From positions 1 through 53,487 of the forward strand of contig JAKIHM010000016.1 in NCBI GenBank assembly GCA_021608145.1: a stretch of DNA of 53,487 nucleotides, in the 5' to 3' direction. Of the stretch, positions 30,457-53,120 are shown piece by piece. The translations under genes and the position numbers were made by a program. The first letter of the stretch is position 1; the number at the start of each line of letters is the position of its first letter. The notes under the pieces were generated by a model. That model saw only the letters and a program-made list of their open reading frames with translations, searched no databases and was not told the origin of the DNA. This DNA is from Thermovorax subterraneus (GTDB taxonomy: Bacteria; Bacillota; Thermosediminibacteria; Thermosediminibacterales; Thermosediminibacteraceae).

Positions 30457-30474
30457 AAGTAAACCAAAGGTCCA

Positions 30475-30564: not shown

Positions 30565-30660
30565 ATTCGAATTTATCCTCTATTGAATATATATGTCACC
30601 GGAAGAAAAAACATTACAAAAAATCCTTATAAGGTAATTTATATCAAATTTTGGTACAAG

Positions 30661-32222: not shown

Positions 32223-32558
32223 TTGGAGGACAAGGTCATAGAACAGGCCATCGAGCGCTTCATTGAGATAGACGGCAAAGCCGCCAACATAAAGGAAACA
32301 AGGGAGAAAAATCTAGCCGAACTCGAATCCAGATACCGTCGGGAAATCCAGGAGATGATAGAAAATTTCAATCGAAAAATCGATGAAAAAGTAAATGAAA
32401 TTTATTCGAAGGCATTAAGCGAAGGCAACCGCGAAGTTGAAGAACTGCAAAAAAAAGCAAGAGAACTTATAAAAACCATGGAGACAAAATACCTCGAAAT
32501 AAAGGAAGAAATCATAAATAAATTTTTAAGCGAGATATTCGATATAAAGAGGTTTTGA
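32223..32558 (+). CDS. V/A-type ATPase peripheral stalk subunit G/H
   Basis: The 111-residue protein is almost entirely a charged coiled coil (about residues 15-100), as expected of the G/H stalk subunit that pairs with subunit E to hold the catalytic head. The start is TTG with AAGGTGAT 5 nt upstream. It is the first gene of the ATPase operon and ends 2 nt before the subunit C start. Sequence similarity in this family is low, so context carries the call. Confidence 0.8.
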   Translation: MEDKVIEQAIERFIEIDGKAANIKETREKNLAELESRYRREIQEMIENFNRKIDEKVNEIYSKALSEGNREVEELQKKARELIKTMETKYLEIKEEIINKFLSEIFDIKRF

Positions 32559-32560
32559 TT

Positions 32561-33604: not shown

Positions 33605-33620
33605 TCAGGAGGCGAACGCG

Positions 33621-35657: not shown

Positions 35658-35674
35658 AATTTGGAGGGATAAAA

Positions 35675-36079
35675 ATGTATGCAATAGTTTTGATGGCTAT
35701 GATCATTTCCGCAGTAACTTGCGCCTCAGGTTTTTACTTCCATCTTGACAAAGAAAAAACAAAAAAAGCGTTAAAGTGGAGCATTGCCCTTTACATTGCC
35801 CTCATTGCAGTTTTTCTGATGTTCGTAATGCCAGCCCAGGTAAAAGCAGCTGGCGATAATTCTTCTTCGCCAGGCCTCGCATTCATCGCAGCCGCGATTT
35901 CTACCGGCCTTGCCACCATCGGCGCAGGCTATGCTGTGGGAGCTGTAGGCTCTTCCGCACTGGGGGCGGTTTCCGAAGACCCAAAAATTCTCGGAAAAAC
36001 TCTAATTTACGTGGGGCTTGCCGAAGGAATAGCGATATACGGCCTTATCGTTTCAATAATGATCCTGGGCAGCCTATGA
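35675..36079 (+). CDS. ntpK: V/A-type ATPase proteolipid subunit K
   Basis: This 134-residue protein has four predicted membrane helices: 1-20, 35-56, 68-92 and 105-132. The last two form a c-type hairpin with the ion-binding glutamate E116 in GLAEGIAIYG. The first hairpin has no acidic residue and ends PAQVKAAG, which resembles a signal-peptidase site, so it may be removed or kept as a dead hairpin. The glutamine and threonine ligands of Na+-type rings are not visible (YAVG where IGQG is usual; EGI in place of ETQ), which favours H+ coupling. Coupling is inferred. Confidence 0.88.
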   Translation: MYAIVLMAMIISAVTCASGFYFHLDKEKTKKALKWSIALYIALIAVFLMFVMPAQVKAAGDNSSSPGLAFIAAAISTGLATIGAGYAVGAVGSSALGAVSEDPKILGKTLIYVGLAEGIAIYGLIVSIMILGSL

Positions 36080-36089
36080 GGGATGGAAT

Positions 36090-36398
36090 ATGAAAGCCTT
36101 CGTTTTAAGCGACAACATGGACACTCTAACCGGCATGAGGCTGGCCGGGATTGAAGGTAAAATAATACACGAAAGAAGCGAACTTATAAGCGAACTTAAC
36201 GAGATATATCAAAAAAAGGATATAGGCCTCGTCATAATAACCGAAAGCCTCGCAGAAAAAGCCAAAGATGAAATAAGTCTATTGAAACTCAAAAAAGGAC
36301 CGCCCATAATAATTGAAGTCCCCGACAGGCAGGGCAGCCGGCGTCCGCCCGATTTTTTGACGAGGTACATCAAAGAATCGGTCGGAATCAAAATTTGA
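36090..36398 (+). CDS. V/A-type ATPase subunit F
   Basis: This 102-residue alpha/beta protein is the small rotor subunit that binds subunit D. Typical features are the start AFVLSDNMDTLTGMRLAGIEG, the strand DIGLVIITE followed by a helix, and PPIIIEVPD near residue 75. It begins 10 nt after subunit K and ends 9 nt before subunit E. Confidence 0.9.
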   Translation: MKAFVLSDNMDTLTGMRLAGIEGKIIHERSELISELNEIYQKKDIGLVIITESLAEKAKDEISLLKLKKGPPIIIEVPDRQGSRRPPDFLTRYIKESVGIKI

Positions 36399-36407
36399 GG
36401 TGAGAAT

Positions 36408-37037
36408 ATGGCGACTACTATTGACGATAAAATATCCCTTTTTACGAAAGTCATTTTTGAAAAGCTAGAAAATGAATACGGCGAAAAAAAACAAAGGCTG
36501 ATAGAACGCTATGAGGCCGAAAAGTCCGCAGTTGAAGCGAAGTTAAAGAAAAAACTGGAAGAAAGAATTTCCGAAGCCAGCCGGGATGCAAACGTGAAAA
36601 AGGATCACATGGTTTCAAAAGCAAAAGCCGAAGCTCATTTCGAAGTACTGAGAAAAAGGGAAGAACTCCTTGAGAGACTCTACGATGAGATAAGAGAGAA
36701 AATAAGACATTTCCTAGACACTCCCGAGTATCTGGAGTTTCTGAAAGACGCGCTAATTCGCGTGACGTCCCGTTTCCCAAGGGATGAGAAGGTGTATTAC
36801 ATCCTCACACCTGACGACTTTCGCAAACACGAACAGGAGATAAGGAGTTTCCTGCAGTCCTTGAAACCTGAGGGTGAGTTTGAAGTCGTCATCGGTGATA
36901 GCAACATGCTCGGCGGGGTCATTGCAAGAAGCCAAAGCGGTCGAATAGAGGTGGACTTATCCTTCGAAACCCTTTTGAGGGAAAATCGCGCAAGACTTGC
37001 GCAGCTTTTATTTTCTCAGCTAGGCCTGGGGGTGTGA
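36408..37037 (+). CDS. ntpE: V/A-type ATPase subunit E
   Basis: This 209-residue peripheral stalk protein has an N-terminal coiled coil rich in Glu, Lys and Arg (about 10-110) and a globular C-terminal domain ending LGGVIARSQSGRIEVDLSF-type sequence, typical of the family. It pairs with the G/H subunit encoded at the start of the operon. The ATG follows GAGGTGAG. It ends 3 nt before subunit A. Confidence 0.92.
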   Translation: MATTIDDKISLFTKVIFEKLENEYGEKKQRLIERYEAEKSAVEAKLKKKLEERISEASRDANVKKDHMVSKAKAEAHFEVLRKREELLERLYDEIREKIRHFLDTPEYLEFLKDALIRVTSRFPRDEKVYYILTPDDFRKHEQEIRSFLQSLKPEGEFEVVIGDSNMLGGVIARSQSGRIEVDLSFETLLRENRARLAQLLFSQLGLGV

Positions 37038-37040
37038 TGA

Positions 37041-38804
37041 ATGCAGGAAGGAAAGATAATCTATATCAACGGCCCCGTCGTCAGAGCTTCAGGCATGAGA
37101 GGATTTACCATGAGAGAAATGGTCATGGTGGGCGAAAAAAAACTCATCGGCGAGGTCATTGCTCTGAATAAAGATGTGGCTACGATTCAGGTTTACGAAG
37201 AAACTTCCGGAGTTCGCGTTGGAGAACCCGTTATAGGAACAGGCAAACCTTTGACGGTAAAGCTAGGTCCCGGAATTATAGGGAATATTTTCGACGGCAT
37301 AGAAAGACCGCTTTCGCGTATATACAAAGAAGGCTCAGCTTTTATACCTCCCGGCATCGGCCTCATATCCCTTGACGAAGAAAAGCGGTGGGATGTGGAA
37401 ATTCTCGCAAAAGAGGGAGATTACTTAAATGAGGGGGATGTATTTGCAGAAGTTGCGGAAACCTCTATGATAGTCCACAAAGTCATGGTCCCTCCGGGGA
37501 TAAAAGGCAGGGTAATAAGTGTAAAATCAAGCGGGAACTACACCATCAATGAGGTTCTGGCAGTGCTAGAAGATGAGGGTAAAACTTTTGAACTCAGGAT
37601 GTGCCAGGAGTGGCCGGTCAGGGAACCTCGCCCGGTTAAAAAGAGAATGGCGATTGAAAAACTTCTTGTGACTGGACAGAGGGTAATAGACACCTTTTTC
37701 CCGCTGGCCAAGGGAGGAACCGCAGCCATACCCGGAGGGTTTGGGACCGGCAAAACCATTACCCAACACCAGCTGGCAAAGTGGAGCGATGCGGATATCA
37801 TCGTCTATATCGGCTGCGGCGAACGCGGCAATGAAATGACTGAGGTGCTGGAAGATTTTCCGAAACTGGAGGACCCGAGGACCGGAAAACCCCTCATGGA
37901 TAGAACCGTACTCATTGCCAACACCTCTAACATGCCGGTAGCTGCCCGCGAAGCTTCCATATACACAGGCATAACCATTGCCGAATACTTCAGGGATATG
38001 GGATATAACGTAGCCTTAATGGCCGACTCCACCTCCCGCTGGGCCGAAGCCCTGCGGGAAATAGCGGGTAGACTGGAAGAAATGCCGGCCGAGGAAGGTT
38101 ATCCTGCCTATCTTGCATCAAGGCTCGCTCAGTTTTACGAAAGGGCCGGTTACTTTGAAAATCTCAACGGCAGCGAAGGGTCGATTACCATCATAGGAGC
38201 TGTTTCTCCAGCCGGCGGCGACTTTTCCGAACCCGTCACACAAGCAACGAAGAGGGTTGTGGGAGCATTCTTAGCCTTAGACAGGGAACTAGCTCACGCA
38301 CGGCATTTCCCTGCTATAAACTGGCTTTTGTCTTACAGCGGATATGTAAAGATGCTGGGCGATTGGTACGCTCAAAACGTAGCCGATGACTTTTTAAGCC
38401 TCAGGGCGAAAATGCTTAGTCTTCTACGAGAAGAGAACAAGCTGATGGATATAGTGAAACTCGTGGGAGAGGACGTTCTTCCTGATGACCAGAGGCTGGT
38501 GCTGGAAATAGCAAGGGTTCTTAAAATGGCATATCTGCAGCAGAACGCCTATCACAAAGAAGATTCATTTGTACCCTTAGAGAGGCAATATAAAATGCTG
38601 AAGGTCATCGAAAAACTATACGACAGGGCTACTTCCGCGATAAAAAAAGGAATCCCTCTAGCCAAAGTGAAAAATGAAGCGCTTTTCAACGATATCATAA
38701 TGATGAAATACAACCTCAATTTCGACGACCTGTCAAGTAAAATCGACGAGTACTTTGATAAGCTGGAAAGTATGTATAAAGAAGGTGCTCAATATGAAAG
38801 TTAG
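37041..38804 (+). CDS. ntpA: V/A-type ATPase catalytic subunit A
   Basis: This 587-residue catalytic subunit has a beta-barrel start, the bulge domain, Walker A GGFGTGKT (about 233-240), [11 protein letters not shown] with the catalytic glutamate, and [22 protein letters not shown]. It hydrolyses or makes ATP in the A3B3 head. The ATG follows GGGGGTGATGA. Its 3' end overlaps the subunit B start by 11 nt. Confidence 0.98.
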
Positions 38805-40167
38805 ATATATTAAATTAGAACAAGTGGAAGGACCATTAATCGTTTTGCAGGATGTAAAAGAGGCAGCCTACGATGAAATAGTAGAGATAGAAGTCCCGGG
38901 TAGAGGAATGCGAATGGGAAAGGTCGTTGAGATAAGCGGTGACAAGGTAATCATCCAAGTTTTCGAAGGGACTTCCGGTATTTCCTTGGACAAAGTAAGC
39001 GTGAGTTTCACCGGAAGTCCAATGCGCATACCACTTTCAAAAGAGATCCTGGGCCGCATCTTCAACGGCATTGCAAAGCCAATAGACGGCGCAGGAGAAA
39101 TTTATTCCGAAAAGACCTATGACATCAACGGTCGACCCATCAATCCCGTGGCAAGGCTGTATCCGAGGAATTTCATAAGAACAGGTATTTCTGCCATAGA
39201 CGGCCTTATCACCCTTATTCGCGGACAAAAGCTTCCCATATTTTCCGGCGACGGCCTTCCTCATAACGAGCTGGCAGCTCAAATAGTCCGCCAGGCCGGT
39301 ATTTCTGGAGAGGAGTCAAAAAATTTCGCGGTAGTTTTCGCGGCCATGGGTATAAAACACGACGAAGCCGACTTTTTCGTGAGAAGCTTCGAAGAAGCGG
39401 GAGTAATGGACAGGGTAGTGATGTTTTTAAATCTGGCCGACGACCCCGTAGTGGAAAGGATTATAACACCGAGGTGTGCCCTTACCGCCGCAGAATACCT
39501 GGCCTTTGAGCGGGGTATGCATGTGCTTGTAATAATGACCGATATGACCAGTTATTGCGATGCTCTGAGAGAAATATCATCCGCCCGGGAGGAAGTACCT
39601 TCGAGGAAAGGTTACCCGGGGTACATGTATTCGGATCTGGCTACGCTTTACGAAAGAGCTGGGATAATAAAGAATTCGGGAGGCAGCATCACCCAAATAC
39701 CGATACTTACGATGCCCAATGACGACATAACCCACCCCATCCCTGACCTCACGGGCTATATAACCGAAGGTCAAATCGTACTTTCAAGGTCCCTGTACCA
39801 ACTGGGTATCTATCCTCCTATCGACGTCCTGCCTTCCCTTTCCAGGCTTATGAAAGACGGCATCGGTGCCGGGTACACGAGGGAGGATCATCCGGACCTG
39901 GCAAACCAGATATTCGCCGCATATTCAAGGGTGCAAGAGGTCAGGGCTCTAGCCCAGGTCATAGGGGAAGAGGAACTTTCTGAAACGGACAAATGCTACA
40001 TGGAATTCGGCCGGAGATTCGAAAGGATTTTTCTTTCCCAAAAGTTCGACGAAAACAGGAGCATAGAAAAGACCCTCGACATCATGTGGGACCTATTAAA
40101 GGTTCTGCCAAGGTCCGAAATAACGAGAATAGACCCTGCCCTCGTCAACAAATACCTGGGGAAGTGA
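38794..40167 (+). CDS. ntpB: V/A-type ATPase subunit B
   Basis: This 457-residue non-catalytic subunit shows [26 protein letters not shown] (a degenerate P-loop position), [14 protein letters not shown] and [20 protein letters not shown]. It lacks a Walker A lysine, as expected. The ATG at 38794 follows GAAGGTG; an in-frame upstream ATG at 38755 lies within subunit A and is unlikely. Confidence 0.98.
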
Positions 40168-40171
40168 GCTT

Positions 40172-40795
40172 ATGAAGGAAAACGTTGCTCCAACGAAAGC
40201 CAATCTAATGGCCGCCGCGTCCGCCCTCGAATTTTCGAAAAAGGGCTACGAGCTTTTGGACAAAAAAAGAAACGTCCTCATCAGAGAAATGATGGGGCTG
40301 ATGAAGAGGGCCTCAGAAATTCAAGTTAAGGTGAACCAAATATTCAGAGAAGCCTATGATGCCCTCCAAATGGCAAATATAACCCTAGGTGTGTCCCAGG
40401 TATACGAAGTAGCCAGATCCATCCCGGAAAATTCAGACTTTACGATACTCACCCGCAGCGTAATGGGCGTCGAAATTCCCATAGTGAGGTACGAAAAAAA
40501 GCCCCTCGACCACTACTATAGTTTTTACCACACCAATGCGGCTTTGGATTTAGCCCTCAAGAAATTTCACGAGGTTAAATACCTCCTGCTGGAACTTGCT
40601 GAAGTGGAAGATTCGGTCTATAAACTCGCCGTTGAAATAAAAAGGACCCAGAAAAGGGCAAATGCACTGAAGAACATACAGATTCCGAAACTTGAGTCCA
40701 TCGTAAAAACCATATCGGAAATGCTGGAAGAAAAGGAAAGGGAAGATTTCTTTAGGCTGAAAACACTAAAGAACAAATTAAGCTCTATTCTTTAA
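40172..40795 (+). CDS. ntpD: V/A-type ATPase subunit D
   Basis: This 207-residue central rotor shaft is two long helices: an N-terminal helix from PTKANLMAAASALEFSKKGYELLDKKR and a C-terminal helix around KRTQKRANALKNIQIPKLE. It begins 4 nt after subunit B. It is the last operon gene. Its 3' end overlaps the convergent metal ATPase gene by 18 nt and no terminator hairpin is visible between them. Confidence 0.95.
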   Translation: MKENVAPTKANLMAAASALEFSKKGYELLDKKRNVLIREMMGLMKRASEIQVKVNQIFREAYDALQMANITLGVSQVYEVARSIPENSDFTILTRSVMGVEIPIVRYEKKPLDHYYSFYHTNAALDLALKKFHEVKYLLLELAEVEDSVYKLAVEIKRTQKRANALKNIQIPKLESIVKTISEMLEEKEREDFFRLKTLKNKLSSIL

Positions 40796-42700
40796 CAACC
40801 TCATTCCATTGAGTGTCACAAGTAAAGAAGCCCCCATATCGGCCACAATAGCGAGCCACAGTGTCAACCACCCTGGAAACGTAGCCAGTACCGCCGCAAT
40901 TTTAAAAAAAAGCGACAAGGTTATATTCTGACGGATGACCCGTTTAGCATTTTTGCTTAAGCGAATCGTAAAGGCCACCTTGGTTAGGTCATCGTTCATC
41001 AAAACTATATCCGCCGTTTCAAGGGCCACATCAGTGCCTGTTCCTCCCATGGCTATTCCTACCGTGGCTGCAGCCAGGGCCGGAGCATCGTTTATGCCAT
41101 CCCCTACCATGGCAACCTTGCCGTATTTTTTTATCAGCTTTTCGAGAACATTAACCTTATCCTGCGGCAGCAGTTCAGCGAAATAATCGTCGACACCGGA
41201 GCGGCGTGATATGGCTCTGGCCGTAGCCTCATTGTCCCCGGTAAGAATGATTGTCTTTTCAATCCCTTCACTTTTCAGCAAAGTTACGGCTTTCTTACTC
41301 GAATCCCTTATCTCATCGGCAACGGCTATAATCCCCAAAATATCGGTTTCAGTGCCCACAAGTATGGTGGTCTTGCCTTCCTCTTGGAGACGTTTTAAGT
41401 CCTGAATTATTCCGCTGGTATCGACACCTTTTTCTTCAAACAATTTAACGCTTCCTATTAATATCACCTCGCCTTTTACACTGCCCATTGCTCCTTTGCC
41501 AGCCAAAGCCGTAAAACTTTCAGCCGAAGTCACATTTATGCCATGATTTTGGGCAGCTTCCACTACCGCATGGGCGATGGGGTGTTCCGACATTTTTTCA
41601 ACGCTAGCCGCTTTATATAAAACCTCTTCTTCAGATTCAGCTCCCACCGGTATTACATCAGTAACCACTGGCTCTCCTCTAGTGAGAGTACCGGTTTTAT
41701 CGAAGGCTACTACTTTAAGTTCTCCTACTTCCTCCAAGTATACCCCACCCTTTATCAGAACTCCGTGCCTGGCTGCATTGCTTATGGCGCTTACTATTGC
41801 GATAGGCGTCGAAATCACCAGTGCGCAAGGGCACGATACCACCAGTAAAGCCAGACCTCGGTAAATCCACGGCTGCCACTCAAAGCCAAATAAAAGCGGG
41901 GGGAAAAGCGTTATGATACCGGCAAGCCCAAGCACAATGGGGGTATACACGGCTGCGAACCGGTCGACAAATGCTTGAACCGGGGCGCGCTTTGCTTGAG
42001 CCTCCTCGACCAGGTGTATAATTTTCGCCAGCGTAGTATCCTGAACAGGTTTCGTTACTTTAACCTCCAGCGAACCGTGAATGTTAATGGTCCCTGCATA
42101 GACTTCATCCCCTGGTCCCTTTTCCACTGGTATGGATTCTCCGGTAATAGTCGATTCGTTTATGGCCGATTCACCCTTTATTATCACTCCATCCATTGCT
42201 ACCTTCTCGCCGGGACGGACTACGATTATGTCGCCGGTATTAATTTCATCTACGGGGACTTCGACCTCACCCCAGGGCTTTTTTACCCTTGCAATTTTAG
42301 GCGCCATGTCAATAAGCTTTTGCAAAGACCTTCTTGCACTTTCCATGGTCCAGGATTCAAGCATTTCAGATATGGAATAAAGAAGCGATACCACAGCCCC
42401 CTCTTCCAGTTCGCCGATTGCCACTGCCCCAATCACCGCCACGCTCATCAGCACGTTCATATTGAAGTCCAGGCGTTTTATTGAATGATAAGCTTTTTTA
42501 AAGTTGCCGAAACCTCCAACTATCATTGCAAATATGAAGCATGGAATGTATATAAAGGTTAATCCCTTGGTTTTTGCCAAAAAAGCCAGAAGCAGGAATA
42601 CTGCGGAAAATAATGCCCTCAGCAATTCGTCCTCGAATCTGGCGGCACAATCCGGACAGGTTATACCCTCTACCCTACATTCTTTGATATTCTGCGCCAT
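40778..42700 (-). CDS. P1B-type heavy-metal (Zn/Cd/Pb) exporting ATPase, shortened N-terminus
   Basis: This 640-residue transporter has the TGES actuator loop (STITGESIPVEKG), the metal-binding SCPCALVIS in the membrane, DKTGTLTRG with the phosphorylated aspartate, HPIAHAV in the nucleotide domain and GDGINDAPALA. SDMG-like ADMGASLLV in the last helix is the ZntA-type (P1B-2) signature. The metal-binding N-domain is cut down to EGITCPDCAARFEDEL, which keeps CxxC but lacks the other 50 or so residues. The ATG at 42700 follows AGGGGGC. It has its own promoter and a palindromic operator candidate. Confidence 0.92.
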   Translation of the reverse strand: MAQNIKECRVEGITCPDCAARFEDELLRALFSAVFLLLAFLAKTKGLTFIYIPCFIFAMIVGGFGNFKKAYHSIKRLDFNMNVLMSVAVIGAVAIGELEEGAVVSLLYSISEMLESWTMESARRSLQKLIDMAPKIARVKKPWGEVEVPVDEINTGDIIVVRPGEKVAMDGVIIKGESAINESTITGESIPVEKGPGDEVYAGTINIHGSLEVKVTKPVQDTTLAKIIHLVEEAQAKRAPVQAFVDRFAAVYTPIVLGLAGIITLFPPLLFGFEWQPWIYRGLALLVVSCPCALVISTPIAIVSAISNAARHGVLIKGGVYLEEVGELKVVAFDKTGTLTRGEPVVTDVIPVGAESEEEVLYKAASVEKMSEHPIAHAVVEAAQNHGINVTSAESFTALAGKGAMGSVKGEVILIGSVKLFEEKGVDTSGIIQDLKRLQEEGKTTILVGTETDILGIIAVADEIRDSSKKAVTLLKSEGIEKTIILTGDNEATARAISRRSGVDDYFAELLPQDKVNVLEKLIKKYGKVAMVGDGINDAPALAAATVGIAMGGTGTDVALETADIVLMNDDLTKVAFTIRLSKNAKRVIRQNITLSLFFKIAAVLATFPGWLTLWLAIVADMGASLLVTLNGMRLLKNRA

Positions 42701-42721
42701 CACGGTAGCCCCCTACGATAA

Positions 42722-42883: not shown

Positions 42884-43819
42884 ATGCTAAAAAAAGACTG
42901 GTCTCGATTCTGGAAGGGATTTTGGCAGCTCGCGGATCCTAAAATATGGATTGCATCAACCGTCCCCATGGCAGTAGGCGCTGCTTTGGCTTACGGCATT
43001 GAAGGAAGATTTAGCCTTTATTGGTTTTTATGGAGTATGATCGGAGTATACCTGATAGAAATAGGGAAAAATGCTATAAACGAATTTGTAGATTATGAAT
43101 CTGGAGTAGATCGATACGTCACGCCTGATAAGAGGACCCCGTTCAGCGGGGGGAAAAAAGTAATAGTCGACGGATTACTTTCTGTTTCGGAAGTTAAAGT
43201 GATCGCTCTAGTAACTATGGCCTTAGCAGGATTTATAGGAGTTTATATCGTTTTATATAGGGAACCTTCCGTCTTATGGCTAGGGGCAGCAGGTTTTATA
43301 CTTTCAATAATCTACAGCTTACCACCTTTTAAACTGTGCTACAGGGGATTAGGCGAAATTACCGTTGGTCTCACCTTCGGGCCTCTTGTGCTCTGCGGGA
43401 CTTATTTGGTACAAGCCCACCAAATCTCTTTAGAGGCGGTCACTGCATCTTTGATCATCGGATTTTTAATAGCCAACGTGCTATTAATTAACCAGTTCCC
43501 CGATTACGAAGCAGATTTAAGGGGAAATAAGCGGAACTGGGTGGTAAGGCTGGGCAAAGAAAGGGCCACTTTTCTTTATTTTGCGCTTTTTGCAGCTGCT
43601 TTTGTTACAACTCCAGCTCTAGCTTATATTTCTGGCAACCCCTTGTTTTTGCTCACTTTAGGCCTATATCCTATTGCAAATAATGCTGTCAAAATTGCAA
43701 AAACATACTACAATGATATTCCTAACCTAATCAAAGCCAATGCTAAAACCGTTCAGATATATCAGCTTACAGGCGTGACCCTCATTATAGGGGCAATCTT
43801 CAACAAGTTTTTACAGTGA
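42884..43819 (+). CDS. MenA/DmkA-type prenyltransferase
   Basis: This 311-residue UbiA-superfamily membrane enzyme has about eight or nine segments. The first aspartate motif is NEFVDYESGVDR (N66, D70, D76) and the second NQFPDYEADLRGNKR, followed by WVVRLGKERA. This pattern is MenA-like (dihydroxynaphthoate prenyl transfer), unlike the NRLVDKDID motif of the second UbiA protein at 50804. Together with the FMN lipoprotein, polyprenyl synthase and NDH-2 next door it resembles DmkA of the flavin-based electron export system. GAGAGGAGG precedes the ATG. Confidence 0.85.
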   Translation: MLKKDWSRFWKGFWQLADPKIWIASTVPMAVGAALAYGIEGRFSLYWFLWSMIGVYLIEIGKNAINEFVDYESGVDRYVTPDKRTPFSGGKKVIVDGLLSVSEVKVIALVTMALAGFIGVYIVLYREPSVLWLGAAGFILSIIYSLPPFKLCYRGLGEITVGLTFGPLVLCGTYLVQAHQISLEAVTASLIIGFLIANVLLINQFPDYEADLRGNKRNWVVRLGKERATFLYFALFAAAFVTTPALAYISGNPLFLLTLGLYPIANNAVKIAKTYYNDIPNLIKANAKTVQIYQLTGVTLIIGAIFNKFLQ

Positions 43820-43860
43820 AATTTCTCAATATTCCTTTAGAAGGATTTTCAATTTTTGTG

Positions 43861-43866
43861 TATAAT
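43861..43866 (+). promoter_or_regulatory. Probable -10 box for the FMN lipoprotein gene
   Basis: TATAAT about 65 nt upstream of the start codon. No good -35 is seen. A small inverted repeat, TCCTTTAGAAGGA, lies just upstream and may be an operator or a weak terminator of the preceding gene. Confidence 0.45.
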
Positions 43867-43930
43867 ATATATTAAGTAGTCCAAAGTTAAATAAATAATC
43901 AATTAAACATTTTTACAGGGGGGAAACATA

Positions 43931-44749
43931 ATGAGGAAACTGTTAGCCCTCGTGCTGGTCCTTTGCTTGGTAGTTGCCCTTGTAGCAGGTTGCAGCTCCC
44001 AAAAGAAACAGGAGGGTCAACCAAACCAGCAGCAGGAACAGCAGGGCGGCCAGCAAGAGCAGCAGGTAGCTTATAAAGACGGCACCTACTATGCTGAGGA
44101 GAAAGAATTCAGTGAACAAGGCTGGAAAGGTCTTGTGACAGTGATTGTGAAAGATGGAAAAATAACAAATGTGTTTTACGATGAAATCAATAAAGAAGGA
44201 AAGCTAAAGAGCTTTGACCCAGAATATGGTCCGAAAATGAAGGAAAAGTCCGGCACGACGCCTGTAGAAGCTTATGCTAAACTGGAACAGTCGCTAATTG
44301 ATAAGCAAAAAGCCGAAGCTGTAGATGTAGTAAGTGGAGCAACCCATACATCCGAAGCATTCAAAGCTCTAGTAGCTGAAGCCCTAAAAGGCACACCAGT
44401 CGAAGCCAAAGGCGGACTTAAGGATGGAATTTATAAAGCATCGGAAGCGAACTTTGACGATCACGGTTGGAAAGCTATGGCTGCCGTTATCGTAAAGGAT
44501 GGAAAGATTCAATCGGCTTTCTTTGATGAAATCAACAAAGAAGACGGGCATTACAAATCAGTAGATCAGGAATACGCCAAGAACATGGAAGCAAAATCCG
44601 GCCAAACTCCTGCTAAAGCAGTAGAAGCCCTCACTAAATCGCTAATCGAAAAGCAGAATGCCGACCAGGTTGACACTGTAAGCGGTGCTACCGGAACTTC
44701 GACCAAATTTAAGAACTTAATGACGGAAGCCCTTTCTCTGGCAAAATAA
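43931..44749 (+). CDS. PplA-like lipoprotein with two covalent-FMN domains
   Basis: This 272-residue protein has a lipoprotein signal with VAGC (C21) and a Gln-rich linker (about 24-46) to reach through the wall. Two FMN_bind domains (about 48-152 and 163-271) follow. Each ends in the flavin transferase target Dxx(S/T)GATxT: DVVSGATHT (132-140) and DTVSGATGT (248-256). The two domains are clearly an internal duplication. An ApbE enzyme, not in this window, would attach FMN to the threonine. Listeria PplA has the same layout and passes electrons to outside acceptors. ACAGGGGGG precedes the ATG. Confidence 0.9.
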   Translation: MRKLLALVLVLCLVVALVAGCSSQKKQEGQPNQQQEQQGGQQEQQVAYKDGTYYAEEKEFSEQGWKGLVTVIVKDGKITNVFYDEINKEGKLKSFDPEYGPKMKEKSGTTPVEAYAKLEQSLIDKQKAEAVDVVSGATHTSEAFKALVAEALKGTPVEAKGGLKDGIYKASEANFDDHGWKAMAAVIVKDGKIQSAFFDEINKEDGHYKSVDQEYAKNMEAKSGQTPAKAVEALTKSLIEKQNADQVDTVSGATGTSTKFKNLMTEALSLAK

Positions 44750-44768
44750 AGCTGGATAAAGGAATTTA

Positions 44769-44800
44769 AAAGGGCATACTTTCTGTATGCCCTTTCTTTT
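44769..44800 (+). terminator. Terminator after the FMN lipoprotein gene
   Basis: AAAGGGCATAC (44769-44779) and GTATGCCCTTT (44785-44795) form an 11-bp stem with a TTTCT loop, followed by CTTTT. Confidence 0.9.
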
Positions 44801-44872
44801 ATAATTGCTAATATCCCTTTTTTGTGTTATCTTTGTTGTTGACCATTTTTGTTAGAAAGAGTGATAGTACCC

Positions 44873-45844
44873 ATGGCATTATACGAATTTTATAATCAAA
44901 TATCAAATGAAATGGCATCATTAGAGGAAAAACTCCTGGCATCGGTTAAAACAAAGGAACCTTTTTTATGGGATGCGTTGAAAAACACTATTAAAGCCGG
45001 TGGAAAGAGAATAAGGCCAGCATTGGTCTATCTTTCCGCACGATTTGGCAATTACGATTTCAATAAAATCACACCCCTTGCCGTCGCGGTTGAATTGGTA
45101 CATACAGCTACACTCATCCACGATGACATCGTGGACGATTCTCCTTTGAGGAGAGGAATCCCCACAGTTCAGGCAGCGATAGGTAAAGATGCTGCGGTAT
45201 ATGCAGGAGATTTTGTGCTCGCAAAGGCTTTGAAAATCCTGGTCGACCACGGCGATATTGAAATTTTAAAGTCAATCTCTGGTATGCTCTATAAAATTTG
45301 CGAGGGAGAGGCGCGCCAGAAAAAAGAAGCTTTCAATATATACATAAGTTTTATTGACTATATTAGGAGGATAAGGAAAAAAACCGCCCTTCTTTTTGCC
45401 ATCAGTTGTGAACTTGGAGCAAGGGGCGCCGATGCTCCTCCTTCGACAATTTCTGCCCTGAAAAAATACGGAATGATGCTCGGAATGGCGTTTCAAGTGA
45501 CAGATGACATCCTGGATCTTACGGTGGATGAAAAAAAGAGCGGGAAACCCCTAGGAAACGACATAAAAGAAGGGGTAATTACCTTACCCCTATTATACGC
45601 CCTTAACTATAGTTCTAGAGCCTTAGAATTGCGAGAACTTTTCTCTGACCCCGCTCGATGGGACTTAAATACCATCCAACATATCATCGAAATAGTCAGA
45701 GAATCCGGAGGAATAGAATACGCCCGGCGTGTAGCCGAGCGTTATATCTCAAAATCCAAACAATATTTATCAGTCCTTTCCGATATCCCCGCCAAGAGTT
45801 CATTGCTTACACTAGCTGATTACGTCGTGAATAGATCCCGGTAG
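44873..45844 (+). CDS. Polyprenyl (heptaprenyl-type) diphosphate synthase
   Basis: This prenyl chain-lengthening enzyme of about 323 residues makes the quinone side chain. The first aspartate-rich motif is LIHDDIVDDSPLRRG and the second QVTDDILDL; GGKRIRPAL binds isopentenyl diphosphate. The start is unsure: ATG 44873 has only a weak ribosome site, and TTG 44849 or GTG 44861 are in frame. It corresponds to DmkB/HepT beside the DmkA-like gene. Its end overlaps the convergent NDH-2 gene by 33 nt. Confidence 0.88.
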   Translation: MALYEFYNQISNEMASLEEKLLASVKTKEPFLWDALKNTIKAGGKRIRPALVYLSARFGNYDFNKITPLAVAVELVHTATLIHDDIVDDSPLRRGIPTVQAAIGKDAAVYAGDFVLAKALKILVDHGDIEILKSISGMLYKICEGEARQKKEAFNIYISFIDYIRRIRKKTALLFAISCELGARGADAPPSTISALKKYGMMLGMAFQVTDDILDLTVDEKKSGKPLGNDIKEGVITLPLLYALNYSSRALELRELFSDPARWDLNTIQHIIEIVRESGGIEYARRVAERYISKSKQYLSVLSDIPAKSSLLTLADYVVNRSR

Positions 45845-47566
45845 AGCGGGTTTTCTGCCGCCTCCTCTAATTATTCTTTTCGCTACTCTGGAGATCCAAG
45901 GAATCGCCCATCTGTCAAGGCCAAACGAATGCCCCGCACCGGAGAAGCATACGGCAAGCGATACCATGAAGAACCACATGTCACCAGAACCCGAGATCAT
46001 GAAATTTAGCAGCATAAATAGCGACCCGAGAGAAGCCAGCATCGTAAATAGTCCGAGAACAAGACACGTACCGATGGCAAGTTCGCTCAACGTTATTACC
46101 GTCTGGAAGAACAGGGCGTGTGGAAAGATGAATTTCTCTACAAAACTCGCGTACCATTCCGGCGTATTGGGCCCTATCGGACTTGTCGAAGCTCCCGCCA
46201 CCAACTTATCACCCGCTGCGAGCCATCCGGAGTGCACTTTTTCAAGTCCCGACATAATCCATCGGTATCCTAAATATATCCTTAAAATAGCAAGCCAAAA
46301 AGCACTGGTGCTAACTCCTAAATTTTGTATGATGAATGACTTCCCGCGCTCTTTGTTGAAAAACTGGTGTCCGATATATTCCCTCACAAAAGTCCATCCA
46401 CCGACACCGAACAGGTAATGCATGTCAGCTAAATGTTTGATGAAGGTAGCAATCCAGCCATCGAGTTTGCGCCCCATTACTTCTGCCACGCAATACCTTT
46501 CCCCAATAGACACCATATTCCCGTGGAGGTTTAGTTTCAGGGGTTTTTTGGAGCCGCCTGAAATTTCAGCAGCAATATTGTGGGCCGCACACTCACCCGA
46601 CTGCATGGCCGATTCCACAAGGGCAGGCATTACGAAATTCTTCTCATTCACATAAAAGCTCACATCGCCTATAGCATAGATGCCATTTTCGCTGGTTTCA
46701 AGGTATTCATTTACTTTTATCCTTCCACGGCCTCCAGTCTCAAGGCCTAGCTTTTCCGCGAGCTGATTGCCCCTCACTCCACCCGTCCAGATCAGGGTAC
46801 GGGTCTTTATCTTTTCTCCGCTCTTTAAGGTAAATCCGTCCGGCTCTACGTTTACGATGGGTGAATTTAATAATAACTTAACTTTGTTTTTCTCAAGATA
46901 ATCGGTAGCCTTTTTTATGAGTTCGTCCGAAAGGGTCGGCAATATTTTCGGCAAGGCCTCCACTACCATAAGGGTAACTTCGTCGCGACTTATCCCATAT
47001 TCCCTGCATAGGTCTTCAACCCATTCCACCAACTCGCCGATCATTTCTATGCCGGTAAATCCGCCGCCGCCTACCACGAAGGTCAGGTACTCGCGCCTCT
47101 TTTCCCCATCCAATTCGTACCTAGCCTTATCGAACATCTCCTCTACTCTATGCCTAATCTTCAGTGCATCTTCGAAAGACCACAATGTGAATGCGTGCTC
47201 TTTCATTCCGGGGATACCAAAATATTCAGGCTGGCTGCCGCAGGCGAGAATCAGGTAGTCAAAGGGATATTCGGCTTTTTTGCCCTTCAAGACCTTGGAC
47301 TTCACGTCCGCATCCTCGATCTCATCAACTACGAGCCTGACACCGGTCTCCTCCAGTGCCTTTTCAAGCGAATAAAGCACTCCTTCCGGTTTTACTCTGT
47401 TGCCGGCAACAAGGTGCAGCTCGGTAAGATATACCTGAAAAGGAGACCTGTTTATGAGGTAAATCTCTACGTCATCCCGCCTTGCCAAAAGCTTGTTAAG
47501 TTTTTGTGCGGCCGTAAGCCCTCCGTATCCACCCCCCAGTATAACTATCCGCTTTTTCTCAGCCAT
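45812..47566 (-). CDS. NDH-2-type NADH:quinone oxidoreductase with C-terminal membrane domain
   Basis: This 584-residue protein is a two-part fusion. Residues 1 to about 420 are a type II NADH dehydrogenase with FAD-binding VILGGGYGGLTAA, NAD-binding VVGGGGFTGIEMIGEL and GIYAIGD. Residues about 425-565 are a DoxX-like domain with four membrane helices. Ordinary NDH-2 is about 400 residues; the Ndh2 of the Listeria electron export locus also has an added membrane domain. It would move electrons from NADH into a membrane quinone. The ATG follows GGGAGGG. Confidence 0.9.
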   Translation of the reverse strand: MAEKKRIVILGGGYGGLTAAQKLNKLLARRDDVEIYLINRSPFQVYLTELHLVAGNRVKPEGVLYSLEKALEETGVRLVVDEIEDADVKSKVLKGKKAEYPFDYLILACGSQPEYFGIPGMKEHAFTLWSFEDALKIRHRVEEMFDKARYELDGEKRREYLTFVVGGGGFTGIEMIGELVEWVEDLCREYGISRDEVTLMVVEALPKILPTLSDELIKKATDYLEKNKVKLLLNSPIVNVEPDGFTLKSGEKIKTRTLIWTGGVRGNQLAEKLGLETGGRGRIKVNEYLETSENGIYAIGDVSFYVNEKNFVMPALVESAMQSGECAAHNIAAEISGGSKKPLKLNLHGNMVSIGERYCVAEVMGRKLDGWIATFIKHLADMHYLFGVGGWTFVREYIGHQFFNKERGKSFIIQNLGVSTSAFWLAILRIYLGYRWIMSGLEKVHSGWLAAGDKLVAGASTSPIGPNTPEWYASFVEKFIFPHALFFQTVITLSELAIGTCLVLGLFTMLASLGSLFMLLNFMISGSGDMWFFMVSLAVCFSGAGHSFGLDRWAIPWISRVAKRIIRGGGRKPALPGSIHDVIS

Positions 47567-47709: not shown

Positions 47710-48447
47710 TCACCTCTTCCACCGGCAAAATATCATATCAAAGGCGTCAACAGCTAAAAATATGAGCAGCCCTATCCCACCTAGGACAAGAATTCCCGAA
47801 TACATGTCGATGTAATTAACTCTCATCCACGAATCCATGATAAAATATCCCATGCCATGAGTGGTCCCGAAGTTTTCCGTAAAAAATAAAACCGAAATAG
47901 CTGTCCCGGTACTTAACCTAACAGCGGTCAGCAATTCCGGCATAGTTGCAGGCAAGATAACCTCTTTGAAAATTGTCGCATCATTTGCCCCTAAAGACTT
48001 CAGGGAATAAAACATCTCTTTGGGTATGTTTTTTACCGAATCGCGTACGGTAATAATTATTTGAAATACTGTTATAATAACTATAATGGTAATTTTTGAC
48101 GCTTCCCCAAGGCCTAATAATATCATTACTATAGGCAACAGTGCGATTTTAGGTATTGGATACGTAAAATATACGATTGGCGAAAGAAATCTGTCGACCG
48201 GGGGATAAAAACCCATCAAAAGTCCTAATATCGAACCTGCTAAAACCGACACGGCAAGACCTAATGCAATTCTGGATAAGCTGAGGGCAGCATGAATTGC
48301 AATCTTTGAAAAAAATATTTCCTTTAAATTGCAAAAGACGGCTGCCGGTGATGGTAAAATAGGATTTTTTAGCGCAACAGATCCTGCTTGCCACAATACA
48401 AAAATCAACAAAAATATAAGGACATACCGGAAAGAGTTCCTCATCAT
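47710..48447 (-). CDS. ABC transporter permease, NitT/TauT family
   Basis: This 245-residue SsuC/TauC-type permease has about six membrane segments and the cytoplasmic EAA loop [25 protein letters not shown]-like region (about 150-175). Its ATG overlaps the ATPase gene by 4 nt. It is the last gene of the ubiDAX-transporter operon. The family imports sulfonates, nitrate, aromatic acids or pyrimidine precursors; the substrate here is unknown. Confidence 0.88.
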
Positions 48448-49184
48448 TTTTGTATACCCTTTAATAATTTCTTTAATTTTAATTGCATGGATATATAATG
48501 CTCGGTATCCTTTACCTCTCGTTCACCAAAGAAAGGATTATCTATAGTCGTAACGATCCGACCAGGAGGCCCTGTCATGACAGTTATCTTTTTCCCCAAA
48601 TACATCGCTTCTTCGGTACTGTGAGTCACAAAAACAGTCGAAACAGAATCGCTTTTCCACACGTCTAAGAAAAGGTCCTGCATTTCCTCTCTAGTTATTG
48701 CATCAAGTGCGGAAAAGGGTTCGTCCAGCAAAAGAATATCCGGCTTCATAATGAAGGCCCTCGCTATCGCTACTCTTTGCTTCTGACCGCCACTTAATTC
48801 GCCTGGGTACCTTTTAAAAAGGCCGGAAAGGCCCACCCGGGCCAGGATATATTCGGCGTATTCCTTATCTTTTTTTTCAATCACCTTTTTCTTTACTTTC
48901 AATCCCAGCAGCGCATTTTCAAATACCCTTTTCCAGGGCAGAAGTCCATAATCCTGGAGCACAAGGCCTATCCTATGTCTTCTCGGATCTATCGGTGCAT
49001 CATTTATCAAAACTTCACCTTCGAACTTATTTATGATTCCTGCCAATACATAAAGAAGCGTGGTTTTCCCGCATCCGGAGGGGCCAATTACAGCAACTAT
49101 CCCTCCCTTTTCCACTTCCAGATTTAATCCCGAAAGTGCTTTAAATTTATCGTAATACACTCCTAGATTGCGTACTTTGATCAT
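48444..49184 (-). CDS. ABC transporter ATP-binding protein, NitT/TauT family
   Basis: This 246-residue ATPase has Walker [12 protein letters not shown] (about 34-44), Q-loop [10 protein letters not shown] typical of the NitT/TauT group, signature LSGGQKQRV, Walker [13 protein letters not shown] and the H-loop VTHSTEEA. The ATG follows GGGAG. It overlaps the permease gene, so the two are coupled. Confidence 0.93.
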
Positions 49185-49203: not shown

Positions 49204-50199
49204 TTATTCTATGAATCTCCCATCCACCAGTTCTTCATACGAAAATGCTTTCTTTACAAGGCCTTTCTTCACCAACCATTCCATTACGCCGTTAAAATCC
49301 TCTTTCGAAGGAAGTCCAGCTTTCGTATATTTGGGGAGGTTAATAATTTCCTTAACATCCTGGGGGAAGCCTGCTTTTTCAATGACAATGTCTATATAAG
49401 AGGACTTTTCGTTTTGGTTGAGAAACTCTACGGCCTTATTGTATGCCCTATAAAAGGCATTTATCTCATTTTCTTTTTGTTCTATGGCTTGCTGAGAAAA
49501 CAACAATACCCCCGGATTTATACCCAATCTGTCGGTGCTCTCTATGACCTTAGCCCCATTTTTTACAGCCACCGAAGCAAGCGGGTCAGGAAGCGTCGCA
49601 GCATCGACCTTTCCGTTTTGCAACATCTCCAACCTGGCAGGAATCTGCGGGACCACCACCTTATTTACCTCATCCGGATTTAATCCGTATTTTTCCAATA
49701 TCTTATCGGTAGCATACTCTATAATGGTATTTTTTGATAAGGCAATGTCCTTGCCCTTTATCTTTTCAACCGCATCTATATTTTTCTCCTTTCCAGCCAG
49801 GAGTTTGTAAGTCCCGTTGGTCAGAGAGGTTATCTTTACCTCAAATCCCCCGTCGTTGGCAAAAGCCGCCGCGAGGATGTCAGAAACTGCCCCGTCTATT
49901 TTGCCGCTTTGAAGGGCACTATCTCTCTCCATCGCGCTCTTAAAGTGCTCAAGTTTAACCTCTACCCCTTCTTCCTGGAAATATCCCTTTGCCTCCGCTA
50001 TTATCAGAGGTATTGAATCCACATCCGGAAGAACGCCAATTACTAATGGACTGCCCGTCGTTTCCTGATTTGCCTTCTCGGAAGATGTAGACGGCTGTGA
50101 TGTGTTTGCCGGATTATTCTTTGAGCATGCGCTTAAAGAAAGCACAAGGCAAATTAAAGTGAAAACAACCACCAGTGTTTTAATTTTTTTGAAAAACAT
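49204..50199 (-). CDS. ABC transporter substrate-binding lipoprotein, SsuA/NMT1 type
   Basis: This 331-residue protein has a lipoprotein signal (LSAC, C25), a Ser/Thr/Asn-rich linker, then a type II periplasmic binding domain with [20 protein letters not shown] and [12 protein letters not shown]. Members bind small acids such as sulfonates, nitrate, aromatic carboxylates or thiamine precursors. Its start overlaps the end of ubiX by 20 nt, which ties the transporter to the ubiD-ubiA-ubiX genes. The protein is exported, so it is not the cytosolic MqnA enzyme of similar fold. Confidence 0.88.
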
Positions 50200-50794
50200 G
50201 ATTCAACTCCACTCCCTTCCATCTATTAAATAATTTATTTTGGATGTTTAAAGCATCCAAAACTCTTCCGACTATGAAATCTACCATATCCTCAATAGTC
50301 TTTGGATTTTGATAGAATGCCGGCATGGCAGGCACTATGTGGGCACCCATTTTGCTTAGTTTCAGCATGTTTTCCAGGTGTATAGAACTCAATGGTGTTT
50401 CCCTAGGAACAATGACAATCCTTCTTTTTTCCTTTAGAAAAACGTCAGCGGCCCTTTGCAACAAATTATGGGACATCCCACCAGCTATAAACGCCAAGGT
50501 CGACATTGAACATGGTATTATGACCATTCCATCAGCCGGGAAAGATCCGCTTGCGATCGGCGCAAAAAGGTCATTTATGTCATATCTTTTAATAACTCCA
50601 CCCAGTCCTTCGTATTTGCCAAAGTGCGATATCAAACCTTCCATATCAAACCCCAGCTCATATTTTAAAACTCTTTCCCCGTTTTCGGTGATTACAAGGT
50701 GTACCTCGTTTTTCTTTTTTAAAAGTTCTTCTACCAGCCTCACGCCGTATATGCTTCCGCTTGCTCCCGTTATTCCAACTACGTACCTCGCCAT
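50180..50794 (-). CDS. ubiX: UbiX-type flavin prenyltransferase
   Basis: This 204-residue enzyme makes prenylated FMN, the cofactor of UbiD decarboxylases, from FMN and dimethylallyl phosphate. Motifs are GITGASGSIYG (8-18), VIIPCSMSTLAFIAGG and VPRETPLSSIHLENML. The C-terminal 15 or so residues extend past the usual end and overlap the next gene. GAGGTGAT precedes the ATG. In futalosine-pathway organisms a UbiX-like protein is called MqnM. Confidence 0.94.
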   Translation of the reverse strand: MARYVVGITGASGSIYGVRLVEELLKKKNEVHLVITENGERVLKYELGFDMEGLISHFGKYEGLGGVIKRYDINDLFAPIASGSFPADGMVIIPCSMSTLAFIAGGMSHNLLQRAADVFLKEKRRIVIVPRETPLSSIHLENMLKLSKMGAHIVPAMPAFYQNPKTIEDMVDFIVGRVLDALNIQNKLFNRWKGVELNHVFQKN

Positions 50795-50803
50795 CGGATC
50801 ACC

Positions 50804-51697
50804 TCATAAGATGAAAATGTCTAAGAAAGAAAATATAAAAAAGGCCACGCTGACTATCTGGTTTATATCGTAAGATGCTATGGTTACGTGCTTTAGGTTT
50901 TGAGGGGAAACCAGCTTATGCTCGGCGTAAAGAAAACATGAGATGACAAAAAGACCGGCAAGATAAAGGTAACCCATATTCATCAAAAAATAGAGGTAAA
51001 ACAAAAGACCCATAGAGATCACATGAAAAGCAGAAGATATTTTAAGTGCATTTTTTATGCCGAATTTTACCGGTATTGAATGAAGGCCGTGACTCGTATC
51101 AAAATCCACATCCTGACATCCGTATATAATATCGAAACCCGCTACCCAAAACATCACAGCAGCACCGAGAACTAAAGCCGGCCATTGTATTTCTCCAGTT
51201 ACTGCGATCCAAGCTCCCACCGGCGCTCCGCCGCAGGCAAGTCCCAGTATCACGTGGCACAGCCAGGTAAATCGCTTGGTGTACGAATATATTACGAATA
51301 AAAATATTGCAACAGGCAGCAATTTCACGCAAAGCGGGTTCAGATTGAACGCGGCTAATACCAATATTGCAAAACAAAATATCACAATCAAAAAAGCTTC
51401 GTATTCCTTTACAACTCCCCTTGGTATATGTCTTCCGGCAGTCCTCGGATTCTTTGCATCTATATCCTTGTCCACCAGGCGGTTAAGGGCATTCGCGCCA
51501 TTTCTTGCCCCTAAAAGGGCCACAATAATCCAGAAGACAACCCTTACCGGTGGAAATCCGCCAGCAGCCCAGAACATGGCAATGAGTGAAAACGGCAGGG
51601 AAAATAACGTATGAGAAAACATTACCAATTCACCGTAAGTCTTTAAACGGCCCCACAAAGAGCTAATATGCGAAACCGCATGGCCTTTAGAACCCAT
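50804..51697 (-). CDS. UbiA/MqnP-type prenyltransferase
   Basis: This membrane enzyme of about 297 residues has eight or nine segments. The first metal motif is NRLVDKDIDAKNPRTAGR (NxxxDxxxD) and the second YGCQDVDFDTSHGLHSIP. This pattern belongs to 4-hydroxybenzoate or dihydroxy-6-naphthoate prenyltransferases, distinct from the MenA-like protein at 42884. The ATG at 51697 follows AAGGTGG and overlaps the end of ubiD by 11 nt. With ubiD and ubiX beside it, MqnP of the futalosine route to menaquinone is the best guess. Confidence 0.88.
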   Translation of the reverse strand: MGSKGHAVSHISSLWGRLKTYGELVMFSHTLFSLPFSLIAMFWAAGGFPPVRVVFWIIVALLGARNGANALNRLVDKDIDAKNPRTAGRHIPRGVVKEYEAFLIVIFCFAILVLAAFNLNPLCVKLLPVAIFLFVIYSYTKRFTWLCHVILGLACGGAPVGAWIAVTGEIQWPALVLGAAVMFWVAGFDIIYGCQDVDFDTSHGLHSIPVKFGIKNALKISSAFHVISMGLLFYLYFLMNMGYLYLAGLFVISCFLYAEHKLVSPQNLKHVTIASYDINQIVSVAFFIFSFLDIFIL

Positions 51698-53120
51698 ATT
51701 CTTTCCACCTTCTGTCAACTAGCTCCTTAATCTTTGGGTCCATTGCAATCTCGTCAGGCCATTCTCTTTCATGTCCTTCTTCCTTCCACTTTTTAGTTGC
51801 GTCAATTCCCATCTTGCTCCCGTAATGTTTCAAAGGGGAAGCATGATCTAAAGCATCAAGAGGCCCTTCTACTATTACCACATCCCTCTTCGGGTCAACA
51901 TTGTTGAATACTTTCCACGCCACAGTCGAAAGGTCTTTTGGATCGACGTTCTCATCCACTACAACTATGATTTTCGTATACATCATCTGCCCGATTCCCC
52001 AAAGAGCGTGCATCACCTTTTTTGCATGGCCGGGGAATCTCTTTTTTATCGAAACTATTACGCAGTTATGAAACACACCTTCCAGCGGAAAATTTATATC
52101 CACTATTTCTGGACACAACATTCTCAAAAATGGTAAAAAAATTCTCTCGGTGGCCTTTCCCAAAAAACAATCCTCCATCGGGGGTTTTCCCACAACCGTT
52201 GCCGGATATATGGGATTTCTTTTCCGGGTTATGCACGTGATATGAAACACGGGATAATAGTCCTTGAGCGAGTAGTATCCCGTGTGGTCTCCAAAGGGCC
52301 CTTCTTCTCTTAATTCATCGATATCCACATATCCTTCGAGAACAAATTCCGCATTGGCGGGTACGTAAATATCGCAGGTTTTGCACTTTACCAGTTCAAG
52401 AGGCGCCTTTCGCAAAAATCCCGCAAATACCATCTCATCAATTTCTTTTGGAAGGGGAGCGGTAGATGCATATATCGTGGCGGGGTCACAGCCGAGAACC
52501 ACGGCAACGGGCATCTTTTGCCCTCTTCTTTTATATTTTTCGTATATCTCCCTACCGTCCTTATGGAGGTGCCAGTGCATCCCCGTAGTCTTCTCATCGA
52601 AAACCTGGAGCCTGTACATGCCCATATTTTGGGTACCCGTCTCCGGGTCTCTTGTAATCACCAATGGAAGTGTTATAAATTTTCCTCCATCCCCGGGCCA
52701 GCATTTCAATATTGGGAGTTTTGAAAGGTCCGGTTCTTCTACTACTTCCTGACATGGAGCCTGTTTTACCTTTCTGGGAAAAATTTTCGCGAGTCTTGCA
52801 AGCCTTGTAGCCGACCTTAATTTATTAAATAACCCCACATAATTTGAAACATCTATTAGCTCTTCGATTTCTCTTGCAATATCATCAAGGCTCTCTACTT
52901 CTAATGCCAGTTTCATCCTCTCATAAGTACCGAAAGTATTTATCAACAGGGGAAATTCCGAGCCTTTTACATTTTCAAAAAGAAGCGCCGGGCCTCCTGA
53001 TTTTACTACTCTATCCACAATTTCGGTGACTTCTAACTCGCTGTCTACTTCTGCCTTTATTCTCTTGAGCTGCCCTTTTTGTTCCAAAATATTCACAAAT
53101 TCCTGCAAATCTTTATACAT
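51687..53120 (-). CDS. ubiD: UbiD-family prenyl-FMN-dependent decarboxylase
   Basis: This 477-residue enzyme removes a carboxyl group from an aromatic ring using prenylated FMN. The typical parts are there: a conserved start FVNILEQKGQLKRI, VVLGCDPATIYAS in the middle, and EGPFGDHTGYYSLKDYYP with the catalytic glutamate. Length is normal for the quinone-related group (MqnL/UbiD). It is the first gene of a six-gene operon. GGAG precedes the ATG by 10 nt. Confidence 0.93.
   Translation of the reverse strand: MYKDLQEFVNILEQKGQLKRIKAEVDSELEVTEIVDRVVKSGGPALLFENVKGSEFPLLINTFGTYERMKLALEVESLDDIAREIEELIDVSNYVGLFNKLRSATRLARLAKIFPRKVKQAPCQEVVEEPDLSKLPILKCWPGDGGKFITLPLVITRDPETGTQNMGMYRLQVFDEKTTGMHWHLHKDGREIYEKYKRRGQKMPVAVVLGCDPATIYASTAPLPKEIDEMVFAGFLRKAPLELVKCKTCDIYVPANAEFVLEGYVDIDELREEGPFGDHTGYYSLKDYYPVFHITCITRKRNPIYPATVVGKPPMEDCFLGKATERIFLPFLRMLCPEIVDINFPLEGVFHNCVIVSIKKRFPGHAKKVMHALWGIGQMMYTKIIVVVDENVDPKDLSTVAWKVFNNVDPKRDVVIVEGPLDALDHASPLKHYGSKMGIDATKKWKEEGHEREWPDEIAMDPKIKELVDRRWKEYGF

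Follow-up and report, generated by a model that had tools for sequence, protein, structure and literature searches.

We analyzed a 53,487-nucleotide stretch of DNA from the thermophilic anaerobe Thermovorax subterraneus (GCA_021608145.1, JAKIHM010000016.1), here called the window, which is one entire contig (C7) of a genome of 2,451,452 bases in 44 contigs. Four neighboring genes in it resemble the core of the flavin-based extracellular electron transfer (FLEET) system of Listeria: a prenyltransferase (DmkA), a lipoprotein (PplA), a polyprenyl diphosphate synthase (DmkB), and a type II NADH dehydrogenase (NDH-2) with a C-terminal membrane extension. An initial annotation had recognized this group, and all four open reading frames (ORFs), with the domains that it named, were found at that place. 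It had also noted that ndh2 faces the other three genes; ndh2 is indeed on the minus strand, convergent with the polyprenyl synthase gene, and the two overlap tail to tail by 33 bases. Two further findings go beyond that annotation. On the same strand as ndh2 lies a quinone operon reaching position 53120, and no complete pathway was found for the head group that feeds the prenyltransferases. We favor the interpretation, with a probability of about 0.62, that the locus is a FLEET core that uses an externally supplied quinone.

Sequence comparisons agreed with all four assignments. The lipoprotein, with a lipobox at Cys21, is 47% identical to Listeria PplA, and its two FMN_bind domains are each predicted to carry covalent flavin mononucleotide (FMN), both ApbE motifs (D-x-x-[S/T]-G-A-[S/T], as defined in PMC12052999) being intact. 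Its best NCBIfam model is PplA (197 bits, below the curated cut-off of 325), and its second FMN_bind domain matches structure 3o6u, a flavinylated FMN-bind protein of Clostridium perfringens (PMC11334425). The 584-residue NDH-2 combines an ordinary NDH-2 fold (top PDB match, 4nwz) with a DoxX-like helical domain C-terminal to it; its 38% identity to Listeria Ndh2 extends over residues 4 to 560, which is 95% of its length and includes the membrane extension. The polyprenyl synthase is 35.5% identical to the Listeria FLEET synthase. For the prenyltransferase, the best NCBIfam models are 1,4-dihydroxy-2-naphthoate (DHNA) polyprenyltransferases, with scores below cut-off. In a tree that carried a long-branch warning for other parts, it groups with the DmkA proteins of complete Thermoanaerobacter/Caldanaerobacter FLEET operons (support, 100/98), apart from lactobacillal DmkA. 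The published operational definition of FLEET (PMC8238504) asks for an NADH dehydrogenase that has a transmembrane helix and is encoded within a gene cluster associated with flavinylation; the locus has this arrangement, and contiguity of the genes is typical of, but not demanded by, that definition. Judged by their sequences, the four genes belong to the Listeria-type FLEET family, and a FLEET-type function is very likely.

The initial annotation left it open whether the locus was partial or split. The system is split rather than incomplete. A search of the genome for helper genes, which that annotation had proposed, found a single ApbE (6e-99; C42:8145-9182) that is 43% identical to Listeria FmnB, and adjacent genes for EetA and EetB (C42:42563-43523; 31% and 39% identical to their Listeria counterparts) beside maf, radC, and mreB, all on a contig other than that of the window. 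Two outcomes had been named beforehand as telling against a FLEET assignment: no ApbE in the genome, or kinship of the lipoprotein and NDH-2 with Rnf/Nqr or fumarate reductase systems. ApbE is present, and the closest relatives of the two proteins are FLEET PplA and Ndh2.

The NDH-2 was found in all nine genomes of the family Thermosediminibacteraceae. In five relatives from four genera, plus one further congener, the four genes keep their order and orientation; the block is therefore not a chance neighborhood. For comparison of gene order with other Firmicutes, NDH-2s with the same C-terminal domain were gathered across Bacillota irrespective of their neighbors. The scan of genome contigs used a narrow C-terminal alignment, which biases the resulting set toward GAGR[AS]FGLD. 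Among the 51 loci with long flanks, polyprenyl synthase was near this NDH-2 type in 41, ApbE and EetB in 38 each, EetA in 33, PplA in 23, and DmkA in 16. A scan of viral contigs with the NDH-2 gave no matches. Outside Bacillota, FLEET-like clusters also occur in spirochaetes (Sphaerochaeta and relatives; L164, L166, L168, and L170), where NDH-2, ApbE, and EetA/EetB are accompanied by one or two PplA-like genes.

Table 1. Genes and sequence elements of the FLEET locus and the adjoining operon (window coordinates)
Feature	Coordinates	Strand	Evidence
dmkA-like, MenA-type UbiA prenyltransferase (motifs NEFVDYESGVD, NQFPDYEAD)	42884..43819	+	PF01040 6e-31
pplA-like lipoprotein, two FMN_bind domains	43931..44749	+	FMN_bind 1e-16, two stretches
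ApbE flavinylation motif 1, DVVSGAT (pplA residue 132)	44324..44344	+	exact match to D-x-x-[S/T]-G-A-[S/T]
ApbE flavinylation motif 2, DTVSGAT (pplA residue 248)	44672..44692	+	exact match to D-x-x-[S/T]-G-A-[S/T]
Terminator-like hairpin 3' of pplA, then T-rich stretch	44769..44795	+	11-pair stem; consensus match alone, count of such sites near chance
dmkB-like polyprenyl diphosphate synthase	44873..45844 (ORF 44849-45844; likely start ATG 44873)	+	PF00348 (polyprenyl_synt) 2e-68
ndh2-like type II NADH dehydrogenase with C-terminal membrane domain	45812..47566	-	Pyr_redox_2 4e-45, DoxX 6e-7
DoxX-like membrane domain of NDH-2, residues 421-566	45869..46306	-	helices in AlphaFold2 model; domain kept in FLEET NDH-2s
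NDH-2 outer-loop element VAGAST, residues 456-461	46184..46201	-	degenerate relative of ApbE-like motif in other FLEET NDH-2s
ABC importer permease	47710..48447	-	PF00528 1e-20; homologue adjoins MqnP-UbiD in G052, G009, G305
ABC importer ATPase	48444..49184	-	PF00005 3e-34; part of same conserved cluster as permease
ABC importer substrate-binding lipoprotein (NMT1/SsuA-like fold), candidate quinone head-group binder	49204..50199	-	NMT1 4e-21
ubiX, flavin prenyltransferase (makes UbiD cofactor)	50180..50794	-	TIGR00421 235 bits vs cut-off 109
mqnP-like prenyltransferase	50804..51718	-	TIGR01475 305 bits (cut-off 181); MqnP model 323 bits (below cut-off 430)
mqnL-like UbiD decarboxylase	51687..53120	-	TIGR03701 menaquinone biosynthesis decarboxylase 680 bits vs cut-off 496

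We searched for the genes that would make the quinone head group. Neither MenD nor MqnC scored over cut-off in any of the nine family genomes (for MqnC there were weak radical-SAM matches alone, far below cut-off), and MqnA and MqnD, at the curated cut-offs, were absent both from these nine and from a further 15 genomes that carry this NDH-2 type; control genomes gave matches. Thus, neither naphthoquinone pathway appears to be complete. Despite these gaps, polyprenyl synthase and DmkA are present, and the genus Thermovorax also has UbiX and the late futalosine-pathway enzymes MqnP and UbiD, of which UbiD is over its cut-off and the prenyltransferase is over that of TIGR01475 and below those of the MqnP exception models. 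In the absence of a complete pathway for it, the head group is probably supplied externally, most likely by uptake from neighbors.

The operon upstream of ndh2 suggests how. It runs from 53120 to 47710 and consists of ubiD, mqnP, ubiX, and genes for the binding protein, ATPase, and permease of an ATP-binding cassette (ABC) importer; adjacent genes either overlap or are no more than 19 bases apart. The operon is kept in three congeners. The same importer is found beside MqnP-UbiD, near this NDH-2, in the genomes G052, G009, and G305, so that the arrangement recurs with FLEET NDH-2 in lineages that are not related to one another and have no mqnA/mqnD. The binding protein also adjoins UbiX-MqnP-UbiD in Petroclostridium and in one Sphaerochaeta, where the fetched flanks stop inside the binding protein. 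Bacillota and spirochaete homologues of this protein have the motifs LPDVxSxPF, SxNTIIEY, and PxIPxR in common. We tentatively propose that the importer carries the quinone head group, probably 1,4-dihydroxy-6-naphthoate; the simplest reading would be uptake of the soluble head group followed by its prenylation and decarboxylation. It is also possible, although we do not favor it, that the importer carries riboflavin (as a RibY-like system), a thiamine precursor, or another compound, with the head group arising by an unknown pathway. The fold of the binding protein is that of SsuA, TauA, and Thi5, which includes binders of pyrimidines, thiamine, taurine, and sulfonates, and an EetB-type flavin supply suggests a need for flavin. 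However, the same fold is found in PqqT, which can carry a quinone cofactor, and the importer sits next to MqnP-UbiD, usually with UbiX, in all lineages seen, enzymes that an importer of flavin or thiamine would not need. Synthesis of the head group in the cell also runs contrary to the failure to find MenD, MqnA, MqnC, and MqnD.

With an imported head group, the FLEET core would work as follows. NDH-2 would oxidize NADH at the cytosolic face and reduce a prenylated naphthoquinone in the membrane. The prenyl tail would come from the polyprenyl diphosphate synthase and would be attached by DmkA to DHNA obtained from neighbors and, in Thermovorax, also by MqnP, with UbiD and UbiX, to 1,4-dihydroxy-6-naphthoate brought in by the adjacent importer. 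PplA, anchored outside, would bear two FMNs attached by the sole ApbE from FAD that EetB exports; the genes for ApbE and EetB are both on contig C42. PplA would then hand the electrons it receives to an outside acceptor, which could be Mn(IV), Fe(III), or soluble flavins, among others. Flavinylation, electron flow, acceptor, and importer ligand are all deduced.

What the acceptor may be is suggested by relatives. Growth of Thermosediminibacter oceani is supported by MnO2, thiosulfate, and sulfur, but this species does not reduce Fe(III) (PMC3035372); Thermovenabulum gondwanense has been listed among Fe(III) reducers (PMC9629499). Closely spaced pairs of CXXCH codon motifs numbered zero in the Thermovorax genome, a search that widely spaced or single-heme proteins would escape; there was one match in each of two relatives, and the reversed control pattern likewise gave one. 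Multiheme cytochromes were rejected as the real route on the absence of such pairs in this genome. Given the metal-reducing relatives and the lack of CXXCH pairs here, the flavin route is the leading candidate for how members of the family would reduce outside acceptors. Mn(IV), rather than iron, may take the electrons that Thermovorax is inferred to export. Alternatively, NDH-2 and the prenylated quinone could supply a conventional membrane reductase whose acceptor is soluble, for example thiosulfate or sulfur, with PplA as a side carrier and no true export to solids. T. oceani, which uses both of these compounds and does not reduce Fe(III), would fit this arrangement, but its use of insoluble MnO2 does not, nor does the strong tie of this NDH-2 type to ApbE, EetB, and PplA across Bacillota and in Listeria; we consider it rather unlikely.

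The sole apbE is closely followed by rex, hydrogenase-type genes, and a full Rnf operon (C42:8145-23664), about 10 kb separating it from the Rnf genes. One flavin transferase therefore probably serves both Rnf and PplA. The lipoprotein itself was rejected as an RnfG or NqrC (23 and 19 bits versus cut-offs of 205 and 255) and as part of a fumarate reductase system, and a separate RnfG is encoded in the genome, these two being the only FMN_bind proteins found there. A role for the lipoprotein as an Rnf accessory instead of an export protein, as the presence of that operon so near ApbE might suggest, is close to refuted by the distinct RnfG, by the gap between its PplA and RnfG scores, and by the linkage of the pplA-like gene to ndh2 in all relatives examined.

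Several points weigh against a FLEET core with an externally supplied quinone. T. oceani has the four-gene block, yet it does not reduce Fe(III), and no physiology of this Thermovorax strain was found in the literature. DmkA is just 22 to 29% identical to the Listeria and Enterococcus enzymes. ApbE, EetA, and EetB are unlinked to the locus, and ApbE, being near the Rnf genes, may serve Rnf first. The helper-gene search covered ApbE, EetA, and EetB, with FmnA (ECF-T) and RibU outside its scope. Similarly, the pathway negatives rest on MenD, MqnA, MqnC, and MqnD; MenB/C/E/F/G and MqnB/E were not searched. Finally, the importer operon does not adjoin ndh2 in other genera of the family.

In many FLEET NDH-2s, an ApbE-like [S/T]GA[S/T] is found in the loop that joins the first two helices of the membrane domain and is predicted to face outward (loci L052-L187, L220, and L221). 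The variants include TSGAS in Listeria, TTGAS in Enterococcus raffinosus, SGAS in streptococci, and SGAT in Thermoanaerobacter. The literature motif D..[ST]GA[ST] occurred in 7 of 38 representative NDH-2s versus 3 of the 269 other ORFs in these loci that are at least 250 residues long; these three all have lipoprotein signals and presumably are of the PplA type. The pattern D..[ST][GSN]A[ST] was present in 18 of 50 representative loops versus a mean of 0.1 and a maximum of 2 in shuffled loops, which argues against an effect of composition, although the looser patterns were picked after inspection of the data. Ordinary DoxX proteins have a related loop, GDKAGAAVTGF, at the same place, with Ala at the acceptor position, and the motif is likely in part to have been inherited from them.

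These loops raise the possibility, which we regard as unlikely, that FLEET-type NDH-2s are themselves substrates of ApbE, with FMN on the outer loop of the DoxX-like domain. No such proposal was found in the limited collection of literature searched. Proteomics in Listeria allowed flavinylation on threonine only (PMC9973259), and therefore a serine site would have escaped. L. plantarum exports electrons without DmkA or DmkB (PMC9888254), for which a flavinylated Ndh2 could account. The motif suggests an answer to how electrons pass from a cytosolic enzyme to outside flavins: if the proposal is true, NDH-2 would bridge the membrane from NADH inside to PplA outside. In the window, the loop is GDKLVAGASTSP; its segment GDKLVAGAST retains the acceptor Ser but does not match D-x-x-[S/T]-G-A-[S/T], the first Ser/Thr being Ala and the Asp one residue off. 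Flavinylation of NDH-2 in Thermovorax is therefore doubtful, and Thermosediminibacteraceae, with a degenerate motif, would rely on scavenged quinone.

FLEET systems were known before; what is new here is a split locus tied to a probable quinone-precursor import operon in hosts that appear to be without complete naphthoquinone pathways. Like the L. monocytogenes locus (L220, NZ_LR134400.1), that of Thermovorax has orthologues of PplA, Ndh2 with the C-terminal membrane domain, and polyprenyl synthase, and the genome has FmnB, EetA, and EetB homologues. Unlike in Listeria, the helpers lie on a separate contig, ndh2 converges on the synthase gene rather than diverging from pplA, and the prenyltransferase falls in a different clade. 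DHNA is made by Listeria itself, whereas no complete pathway was found in Thermovorax. Lactiplantibacillus plantarum exports electrons with exogenous DHNA, dependent on Ndh2 and PplA (PMC9888254), but this lactic acid bacterium is a mesophile whose locus is contiguous, and a linked importer operon was not described in the literature searched. The operons of Thermoanaerobacter wiegelii and Caldanaerobacter subterraneus (L134 and L136) share the DmkA clade, NDH-2 type, PplA, and polyprenyl synthase but have all seven genes, including ApbE, EetA, and EetB, at one site. With the futalosine (Mqn) pathway, Thermovorax shares MqnP and UbiD (MqnL), plus UbiX, but it lacks MqnA, MqnC, and MqnD and adds the ABC importer.

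A complete V/A-type ATPase operon (32555-40795, plus strand) immediately precedes the locus, as it does in related genomes. Between the two is a P-type metal ATPase gene (40778-42703, minus strand) whose product, compared with that of congener G001, lacks about 80 residues near the N terminus between two matched pieces; the deletion is apparently in frame and removes most of the heavy-metal-binding domain. A riboswitch search of the window found none at the FLEET locus; a thiamine pyrophosphate (TPP) riboswitch (30464-30568, minus strand; 66.7 bits) is just upstream of a predicted membrane protein resembling a thiamine energy-coupling factor (ECF) substrate-binding subunit. An IS110-like transposase (4080-5363) and a TnpB-like (IS200/IS605) protein (30818-31936), both on the minus strand, were identified from translation alone.

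A transporter for soluble quinone precursors has been described as missing (PMC5738691; PMC4746308), and the operon beside ndh2 is a candidate for it. Some members of the family reduce metals, and the locus offers a concrete route where no obvious multiheme cytochrome route is apparent. If our interpretation is correct, electron export in Thermovorax would depend on quinone cross-feeding.

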